64,000 nucleotides of DNA, taken from NCBI GenBank assembly GCA_021325635.1, contig JAJPGV010000033.1, positions 62,001-126,000 on the forward strand. The letters run 5' to 3'. Within the stretch, counting starts at the first letter, position 1. Every line of letters starts with the position of its first letter. The notes beneath the pieces are model-generated. The model was not told the origin of the DNA. It saw nothing but the letters and a program-made list of their open reading frames with translations, and made no database searches. Below, piece by piece: positions 41,057-56,900 of this stretch. This DNA is from Chloroflexota bacterium. Its GTDB lineage: Bacteria; Chloroflexota; JAJPGV01. Made by a program: the position numbers and the translations under genes.

Positions 41057-41321
41057 AGCGGCCCCTCGGGCCGCTGGAACGAGTGAAGAGTGAAGAGTGA
41101 AGAGTGGGGTGCGATGCAATCGCGCCCTCTGTCCTGGACCCTCGACCCCGAACCCTTGATCCCGAACCCTCGACCCTCGACCCTCAACCCTCGACCCTCA
41201 ACCCTCGACCCTCGACCCTCGACCCTCGACCCTCAACCCTCTGTCCTGAACCCTCGACCCCGTCACTCTTCACTCTTCACTCTTCACTCTTCACTCCTTC
41301 CAGCGGCCCGAGGGCCGCTGG
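41057..41321. repeat. Composite 7-nt tandem-repeat element with opposed arms and terminal hairpins
   Basis: In order: a hairpin AGCGGCC/GGCCGCT at 41057-41075; a left arm of GAGTGAA units (three plus a partial) at 41081-41106; a unique stretch to about 41135; about 18 units of CCCTCGA/CCCTCAA type at about 41136-41261; a right arm of CACTCTT units (four plus a partial) at 41264-41296, complementary to the left arm; and a perfect 9-bp hairpin CCAGCGGCC/GGCCGCTGG at 41300-41321. All arrays have a 7-nt period. The element fills the 320-nt gap between DUF2851 and the LysM gene. It resembles in style the heptameric STRR repeats of cyanobacteria. No transposase is present. Confidence 0.9.
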
Positions 41322-41335
41322 AAGGCCATTCCTGC

Positions 41336-54942: not shown

Positions 54943-56595
54943 TTACACCGAGCCGGCGAGCCGGGTCCGGACTGGCTCGGCGCAGCAGAACCACGACTCC
55001 GTGAGCCGCGGCGGCTCCGGCCGGTGTGAGGCCGGGCGGCGCATGGCCGCGGGAGCAGGCAACCCAGCCGTTCGATAGGCAGCGGTCTTGACCGCCAGAA
55101 ACGTGGCCCACACGTCCCGTTGCTCGCACTCGGCCTCTTCGACGATGGCCTGGACCTGTAGGGACAGGCTATCCATGCGGTCATCGGGGTGCCGCCAGCG
55201 GTATGAGAACGCCGCGCGATCGAGCTCGCCCAGCCATTCGCGGGCGCTCTCGAGCAGGGCGGAGCCCGGCGGCACCAGCAGGCGGATAGAGTACTGCACG
55301 GGGTCGATCATCTCGACCAGGTCTCTGCCCTCGACGAACGCCAGCAGGGCGAGGTAATCGTCCAGGGTCGTCCAGGGGGTGAACGCCACCAGGGATGGTC
55401 GCAGGGGGATGTCGGCGGCGGCCATGACGTCCAGGGCTCGGGCGACGTCCTCGGCGGTGTGGCCCTTGTCGAGCCGCCGCAGCACTTCGTCGCTCAACGA
55501 TTCCACCGCCGATACGACGAAGGCACAGCCGAGCTGCTTGAGCTCCGGCATCAGCCCCGCATGGGCCAGGATGTGCTCGATCTTGATCGTCGCGTCGAAG
55601 CTCACGTCCGGAAACTCTTTGTGCATGGCCCTCGCGATTCGCAGGCTGTGCCCTGGGCCGTTCAGGAAGTCCGGGTCGCCAAAGGTGATGTGGCGGGCGC
55701 CGGAGGCCACCTGGCGGCGAATGTCGCGCAGCACCAGATCGGGCGGCAGCACGAAGAACCGGCCGTTGTAGACCGGGGTGATCGGACAGTGCAGGCAGCG
55801 ATGCTTGCAGCCTCGGCTGGCTTCGACGTAGCCGGCCGTCAGCCGCTCACCCGCTCGCATGAGCCCGGCGTAACGCTCGAGTACAGGCAGCGCCGAGCGC
55901 ACCGGCTCGGCAAAGCGCAGGCGTCGTATGTGCGGGGCGGCGTAGCGCTCCGGGTAGCGCACGCCCTCGCCGGCCAGGCGGCCCTCCTCCAGCGCCTGAG
56001 CCAGCCCCAGCAGCGGCTCCTCGAACTCCCCGCCGATGACCGAATCGGCGAGCGGTTCGGAGTCCCTGGCGGCAGAGGCCGGGGGCCGAGGGCCAGGGGC
56101 CAGAACAGAACCCATACGATGCGCGTCCGCGGTGCTCGACACCTGCCCGGCCCGCGGCCCACGGCACTCCGGACCGCTCGTTTCCCCTGCCCCCTGGCCC
56201 CTGGCCCCTGACCCCTCGAACAGATATTCCGCATTCAGCCAGGCATACAGTCCGTACACGCAGATATGAGCGTCGGCGTTCAGCTCGCGGACCCGACGGG
56301 CGATCTGCTCAGCCAGGCGGAGAGCGGTGTGCATGGGCACGGAGATGGCGACCAGCTCGGCGCCGGTGATGATCTCGTCGGCCAGCTGCTCGACGTGGGT
56401 ATCGACCGCGAGTGGCTGGTAACCGGCCTGGATCAAGCTGCCCAGCGGCGAGGCCAGGTTGAGCGGCTGATGACCCAGCTCGTAGCAGGAGATCAGCAGG
56501 ATGGCTCCGCGCCGCCGCAGGCTCGATGTAGGGATCTCCAGCGAGAGGGCCTGGTTCAGATCGTCCGGGCCGCAGCAGGCCGCCCCGGAGGTCAC
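54943..56595 (-). CDS. B12-binding radical SAM protein with C-terminal CCAEP tail, carrying a repeat-derived insertion
   Basis: From GTG 56595 the protein has about 550 residues. The N-terminal part (about 30-130) resembles a cobalamin-binding domain (ILLISCYELGHQPLNLASPLGSLIQAGY, ELVAISVPMHTALRLAEQIA). The radical SAM core has Cys-x3-Cys-x2-Cys in GCKHRCLHCPITP, then ITFGDPDFLNGP and VESLSDEVLRRLDKGHT. It ends with LTESWFCCAEP, the tail of the CUAEP/CCAEP radical SAM group, whose sister members have selenocysteine in place of the first Cys. About 55 residues between NAEYLF and ADSVIGGEFEE are encoded by a heptamer-repeat insertion. GTGA overlap with the yggX-like gene shows coupling. The reaction is unknown. 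Confidence 0.88.
   Translation of the reverse strand: MTSGAACCGPDDLNQALSLEIPTSSLRRRGAILLISCYELGHQPLNLASPLGSLIQAGYQPLAVDTHVEQLADEIITGAELVAISVPMHTALRLAEQIARRVRELNADAHICVYGLYAWLNAEYLFEGSGARGQGAGETSGPECRGPRAGQVSSTADAHRMGSVLAPGPRPPASAARDSEPLADSVIGGEFEEPLLGLAQALEEGRLAGEGVRYPERYAAPHIRRLRFAEPVRSALPVLERYAGLMRAGERLTAGYVEASRGCKHRCLHCPITPVYNGRFFVLPPDLVLRDIRRQVASGARHITFGDPDFLNGPGHSLRIARAMHKEFPDVSFDATIKIEHILAHAGLMPELKQLGCAFVVSAVESLSDEVLRRLDKGHTAEDVARALDVMAAADIPLRPSLVAFTPWTTLDDYLALLAFVEGRDLVEMIDPVQYSIRLLVPPGSALLESAREWLGELDRAAFSYRWRHPDDRMDSLSLQVQAIVEEAECEQRDVWATFLAVKTAAYRTAGLPAPAAMRRPASHRPEPPRLTESWFCCAEPVRTRLAGSV
56077..56218. repeat. 7-nt tandem-repeat element with opposed arms inside the radical SAM gene
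   Basis: Left arm: four 7-nt units of GGCCRRG type (GGCCGGG, GGCCGAG, GGCCAGG, GGCCAGA) at 56077-56104. Right arm: five 7-nt units of CCCCTGG type at 56184-56218. The arms are largely complementary and enclose a 79-nt centre. The architecture repeats that of the element at 41057-41321 with different unit sequences. It is in frame in the gene and adds a Gly/Pro/Ala/Ser-rich loop. Confidence 0.85.
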
Positions 56596-56900
56596 TTCTT
56601 GGCGGCGCCGCCCTTGACCGCGCCGCCGGCCGCGGTCGTGGGATCGTACTCCTGCGGCATCTGGGCGTCGGGCGCGAAGAAGAACTCCTCCATCTGCTCG
56701 CGTAGGAACCTGCGCGCCTCGGGATCGCCCATGCTCAAGCCGTAGTGGTTCATGAGCAGCGTAGCCTGGCGCTCCCACAGCTCCCAGGCCTGTTGAGAGA
56801 CGTGCTCGAAGATTCGCTGGCCGAGCTCGCCCCCGATTGGCGGCGCTTCGAGGCCAGGCAGGTCTCGGTCAAACTTCACGCAATGAATCATGCGAGCCAT
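56592..56900 (-). CDS. YggX-like Fe(2+)-trafficking / oxidative damage protection protein
   Basis: The 102-residue protein matches YggX in its core: IHCVKFDRDLPGLE with the conserved Cys7, GELGQRIFEHVSQQAWELWERQATLLMNHYGLSMGDPEARRFLREQMEEFFF. An Ala/Gly/Lys-rich tail of about 20 residues is added. YggX proteins, best known in gamma- and betaproteobacteria, protect or supply iron-sulfur enzymes. Coupling (GTGA) to a [4Fe-4S] radical SAM gene suggests it serves that enzyme. ATG 56900 stands behind AAGGAG. Confidence 0.85.
   Translation of the reverse strand: MARMIHCVKFDRDLPGLEAPPIGGELGQRIFEHVSQQAWELWERQATLLMNHYGLSMGDPEARRFLREQMEEFFFAPDAQMPQEYDPTTAAGGAVKGGAAKK

Follow-up and report, generated by a model that had tools for sequence, protein, structure and literature searches.

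The in-frame insert that interrupts a radical SAM gene in this Chloroflexota genome is best read not as a lone oddity but as one example of a type of repeat already described but not explained, the G-rich heptamer inverted repeats. The insert lies in a stretch of 64,000 nucleotides (here, the window) on contig 23 of the source genome (4.64 Mb, 63 contigs), and its parts are listed in Table 1 together with a second heptamer element from the same window. The product of the host gene matched Pfam Radical_SAM (1.1e-14) and the CUAEP/CCAEP-tail family NF040546 of NCBIfam (3.9e-206; 685 bits, with a cutoff of 500), and its open reading frame was uninterrupted from end to end despite the insert. The sequence-only reading had held that the repeat entered the gene without destroying it; this stands for the reading frame, and the claim extends to the frame only, not to the function of the putative enzyme.

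Table 1. Coordinates of the host gene and of the heptamer features in the window
Feature	Coordinates	Strand	Description
Radical SAM gene	54943..56607	minus	B12-binding-like N-terminal part; CUAEP/CCAEP-tail family; tail WFCCAEP; start codon not fixed
In-frame insert	56060..56218		159 nt, net +53 codons; TCG direct repeat at borders 56057-56059 and 56216-56218
Arm 1	56077..56104		Read on the + strand, GGCCGGG GGCCGAG GGCCAGG GGCCAGA; four G-rich GGCC-type heptamers
Loop	56105..56183		79 nt; degenerate heptamers (minus strand GAGTGCC GTGGGCC GCGGGCC)
Arm 2	56184..56218		Read on the + strand, CCCCTGC CCCCTGG CCCCTGG CCCCTGA CCCCTCG; five C-rich CCCCTGN-type heptamers
Second opposed-arm heptamer element	41058..41326		Intergenic, flanked by divergent genes; arms of GAGTGAA at 41081-41106 and 41263-41296
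Inner array of second element	41133-41260		CCCTCGA, 18 copies
Outer palindrome of second element	41296-41325		14-nt palindrome CCTTCCAGCGGCCC..GGGCCGCTGGAAGG

The opposed heptamer arms around 79 nt had been described, with exact coordinates, from the sequence alone. Read along the coding strand, the G-rich heptamers come first (arm 2, which forms the 5' arm), followed by the loop and the C-rich heptamers; the first letters of the insert are CGAGGGG, and G-runs are present in the arms of the window. The inverted arms (56074-56103 and 56187-56216) showed 80% complementarity over 30 nt, and the folding of the coding strand (z = -3.4) beat 200 of 200 shuffles. Five period-7 arrays with a score of at least 11 were detected in the window, three of them with a score of at least 20, while 60 order-3 Markov simulations of the window gave means of 0.18 and 0, respectively. 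The second element, overlooked in the sequence-only reading, had a stronger fold than the insert (z = -11.4).

The gap between the motifs NAEYLF and ADSVIGG spans 56 residues here versus 3 in most homologues, a net gain of 53 amino acids (159 nt), which agrees with the earlier claim of extra residues added in frame at this point. When the 159 nt were omitted, CTGTTCG was joined to AACCGCTCG and the translation read LFEPLADS, with TCG at each border (the exact ends of the insert, 56060-56218, are ambiguous within this TCG); the restored junction, CTGTTCGAACCGCTCGCC (LFEPLA), has the spacing of the homologues. Across 52 homologous loci aligned over the insertion point (35 + 17, of which at least L035 and L053 share one contig), the insert was absent from 50, the YLL and AD motifs being three residues apart in most of them. 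The remaining two, L058 and L062, which are distant and belong to another family, carried shorter, different and nonheptameric inserts at the identical point, that of L058 being made of a 15-nt repeat. Because of these different inserts in two other genomes, the site is a permissive loop and not a special target. An ordinary variable loop, with homologues of the same length and composition, had been named as the reading that would overturn the original one; no such insert was found at any of the 52 loci, and the objection falls. In the AlphaFold model, which rests on a shallow alignment and has a mean pLDDT of 61, the insert (residues 134 to 182 of the protein) had pLDDT values of <50 and fell between a helix (126-131) and a strand (189-191). 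The predicted structure would thus place the insert in a surface loop of the radical SAM protein, a setting that the sequence-only reading had already raised.

Heptamers of this kind proved to be common in the genome. A pattern search of the genome returned 253 heptamer matches versus 22 with the reversed control. For clusters and arrays, counts refer to a sample of 1.84 Mb (40% of the genome), of which 87% was called coding by a simple gene caller, the source also of the coding and intergenic assignments below. Tandem arrays with a score of at least 14 numbered 86 at period 7 versus 0 to 3 at periods 4, 5, 8 to 11, and 13 (periods 14, 21, and 28 in the same table are multiples of 7). We identified 54 heptamer clusters, 51 of them intergenic, with 18 opposed pairs; further 7-nt opposed-arm elements, which the sequence-only reading had proposed to look for, do exist. 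The unit classes were few and related by single changes (GAGTGAA, GAGTGCA, GAGTGCC, GAGGGCC, and GAGGGTC; AAGGCGC and GAGGCGC). Neighboring opposed arms ran from G-rich to C-rich in 18/18 cases here and in 20/21 in genome G060, which belongs to another class, and the match between the arms of one element was above that of permuted arms in both (13/2000 here and 0/2000 in G060); genome G109 (f22), in which 200 kb yielded too few strong arrays, is not part of these arm statistics. Some GAGTGAA elements have a common outer GGTCGCTGCGCTCCC repeat, the closest approach to fixed ends that we saw. Nine contigs of the source genome (6, 9, 19, 24, 30, 33, 34, 49, and 59) start no more than 300 nt from a heptamer array, which indicates that long arrays break the assembly and that their number is underestimated.

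The position of the arrays relative to genes was also regular. Of 46 stop codons, 35 had a G-rich array as the first one outward from the gene and 11 a C-rich one; for 31 starts, the numbers were 26 and 5. The start of many arrays coincides with the stop codon, whose last bases they share; elements were likewise found ahead of start codons and in the gaps of divergent gene pairs. All three intragenic clusters belonged to a class without stops in most frames. Of the 51 intergenic clusters, 20 lacked an open frame among the six, a distribution that fits the survival of harmless copies. Elsewhere in the genome, an in-frame heptamer insert occurs in an Lhr-like helicase gene (L070:18557-18826; PRAEGRGPRADGRGPSAEGRG...), which we did not retain as a clean empty-site case, as there was one usable homologue at the threshold and it has a low-complexity stretch of its own nearby. 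An in-frame array was also seen between hydrophobic segments of a predicted multispanning membrane protein (L092:5788-5832).

How such elements change could be followed in G060 and G245, two genomes of one genus within the Chloroflexota (in another class than the source genome) in which most flanking segments are 80 to 95% identical. At L217:6047-6109, both carry an in-frame hairpin of equal length, in open reading frames of 916 and 887 amino acids. Six of the eight differences between the two copies are GCAGATG versus GCAGATT, spaced 7 nt apart, three on each arm (as complements on the right one), with one or two changes in the loop and none in the outer units. The change within this single element was concerted, which suggests that the repeat units on both putative hairpin arms change together. 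Two other orthologous sites had different units in the two genomes (GGCTGAA versus TGTTGAA at L209:2832 and AGTGTTG versus AATGTTG at L209:19629), and at four more (L209:7673, L209:8753, L209:13662, and L217:16766) the corresponding gap in G245 held an unrelated hairpin. In the same genus, a hairpin of AGATTGC units recurs at dozens of loci with 80 to 92% identity, and one copy (L214:5497) is absent from G245; given that two open reading frames run together there, loss is as likely as gain. A 255-nt difference at L209:9377 was set aside, since part of a conserved domain is lost in G245 and an assembly or deletion effect is likely. The GACTCCC heptamers at L209:9377-9418 lie in the alanine/proline linker of a dihydrolipoamide acyltransferase-like gene of G060. 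L209:4073-4205 is a separate dispersed repeat of ca. 130 nt, 85 to 90% identical at many G245 loci and absent from the orthologous gap of that genome.

We consider it probable, on balance, that the insert is a member of a genome-wide set of inverted-arm heptamer elements that was grown by slippage, homogenized across its arms and tolerated within a gene. The fixed period, the fixed polarity of the arms, the match between them and the in-frame tolerance of stop-free classes are all observed. Each strand of an element carries G-rich heptamers at the 5' side, a loop and complementary C-rich heptamers at the 3' side, and could fold into a hairpin. Arrays would gain or lose length in 7-nt steps by replication slippage, and a change in one unit would pass to the other units of its own arm and then, through pairing of the arms, to the opposite one, perhaps by template switching within the hairpin; the spread over two arms was itself observed at one orthologous site. 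Since a few heptamer classes are common to many loci, some copying between loci would be needed beyond slippage alone. Most elements lie between genes, often beginning at a stop codon, and the radical SAM copy would have arisen or landed in a surface loop of the N-terminal domain, between helix and strand. It may have survived because its class is stop-free in the frame used, its net length is divisible by three and added residues are tolerated in the loop. Neutral tolerance is our default for the insert in the protein, and we claim no function for it. Against this explanation, the concerted change comes from other genomes of the phylum, mainly from one clear site, and the arms of the window element are only 80% complementary. 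A bolder version, which we put forward tentatively and hold less likely than its opposite, is an unrecognized Chloroflexota class of hairpins that is independent of sequence, in which period 7, polarity and docking at stop codons stay constant and the unit would be rewritten in every copy of both arms by a templated process rather than by simple point mutation.

The sequence-only reading had described the insert as a mobile or expanding repeat. What survives of this is a lineage-specific, frame-keeping copy of a common and dynamic genomic repeat; mobility in the sense of transposition does not, as the loop is unique, the flanking duplication amounts to a 3-nt TCG and relatives rewrite or swap units at fixed places. 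A nonautonomous hairpin resembling REPs or MITEs and moved in trans by a transposase, for example, a single Y1/RAYT-like protein, therefore appears unlikely to us. Such a gene does exist, as the only Y1_Tnp match (C46:17504-17722) falls in a Y1/RAYT-like gene (L125:17381-17899, on the same contig) whose 3' frame is possibly damaged and which is flanked by inverted GTAG-type GTAGCGCGGGGCCTTGCGCCCCGC palindromes; two heptamer elements (L070:14435-14832 and L098:5248-5768) contain this palindrome as well. GTAG-tagged REPs with RAYT transposases are palindromic and adjoin the 3' ends of genes, their ends often provide a TAG stop and some lie within open reading frames (PMC3733652; PMC2817692). The many copies of the AGATTGC hairpin, with one orthologous site lacking it, could also be read as movement. 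However, the palindromes beside the Y1 gene are not heptameric, and the gene is present but not tied to the heptamers. Unlike GTAG REPs, which are constant sequences of 20 to 40 bp with a GTAG or CGTC tag and lack 7-nt tandem arms, the units here vary between elements, constant ends are missing and the loop (56105-56183) had no second copy in the genome, only partial matches at chance level. Similarly, a MITE would have fixed inverted repeats at its ends, a duplicated target site and many copies of near identity, whereas the insert has a unique interior and the TCG alone, and the absent AGATTGC copy may be a deletion, as two reading frames lie in one frame at that site in G245.

Somewhat less likely still, in our judgment, are functional RNA or DNA hairpins (for transcription end, protection of mRNA 3' ends or control of ribosomes) selected at gene ends, with the copy in the radical SAM gene as a stray. 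The strong preference for gene ends speaks for them, as do the unrelated hairpins of G245 at the four compared sites (as if one were wanted there), the like placement of heptamers in other bacteria (PMC4692102) and the reported influence on translation of REPs near stop codons (PMC12306157). On the other side, elements also occur upstream of starts and between divergent genes, no general pattern of poly-U tracts was noted, an Rfam search of the window gave no match and neutral accumulation outside genes predicts a nearly identical distribution. Very improbable are an assembly error or an ordinary low-complexity coding loop in which chance or codon bias produced the heptamers: two homologues do have longer loops at the point and arrays do break contigs (the nine starts above), but such array scores never arose in the 60 simulations, a period of 7 is unlike codon structure, the class recurs genome-wide and a short-read assembly should resolve this insert, given that its units differ among themselves and its arms are short.

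Returning to the slippage-grown heptamer set that we favor, its nearest counterpart is the set of dispersed G-rich heptamers described from Xanthomonas and Nostoc (GGGNATC and GGGGA(C/T)T; Rehm et al. 2015; PMC4692102). Those repeats pair up in inverted orientation across the two strands (70 pairs in Xcc and 75 in Xac), are in some cases intragenic and had their function left open. As in those, the unit of 7 nt is dispersed, mostly intergenic, overlaps stop codons and forms inverted pairs, and its G-rich strand points away from the nearby gene; here, 7 nt is also the dominant tandem period, and the G-rich strands of opposed pairs near gene boundaries converged in all cases (18:0). The exception is the unit itself, since GGGNATC or GGGGAYT heptamers with four quadruplex-forming G-tracts are not general here, where the units include GAGTGAA, AAGGCGC, and GAGTGCC. 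Unlike the Rehm repeats, there are several classes per genome, many not quadruplex capable (GAGTGAA, AAGGCGC, and AGATTGC), a conserved enzyme interrupted in frame by a large insert and, in relatives, a concerted change of two arms between species. The TAACTGA heptamers of Beggiatoaceae (MacGregor 2015; PMC4679880) are likewise dispersed 7-nt direct repeats, mostly intergenic and in some cases over stop codons, but they have one fixed unit, and only one inverted repeat was reported in that genome. Rickettsia palindromic elements are in-frame palindromes in protein genes that add tens of residues (PMC3733652); the insert resembles them in being palindromic, in frame within a conserved reading frame and absent from homologues, a likeness of behavior; they form families of common sequence, whereas the insert has a unique loop and tandem-heptamer arms. 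We found no report of heptamers in the literature on Chloroflexi or Roseiflexus.

Several bacterial groups are known to carry heptamer repeats, for which no origin or function is accepted, the main idea offered being quadruplex formation. The many classes in this genome and its relatives, of equal period and polarity and without G-tracts, weaken this idea as a general cause. The sites shared by G060 and G245 make the change of the arrays testable through comparison of strains, and the radical SAM insert is an example of how a heptamer element can lengthen a member of a conserved enzyme family by 53 residues with the frame unbroken.
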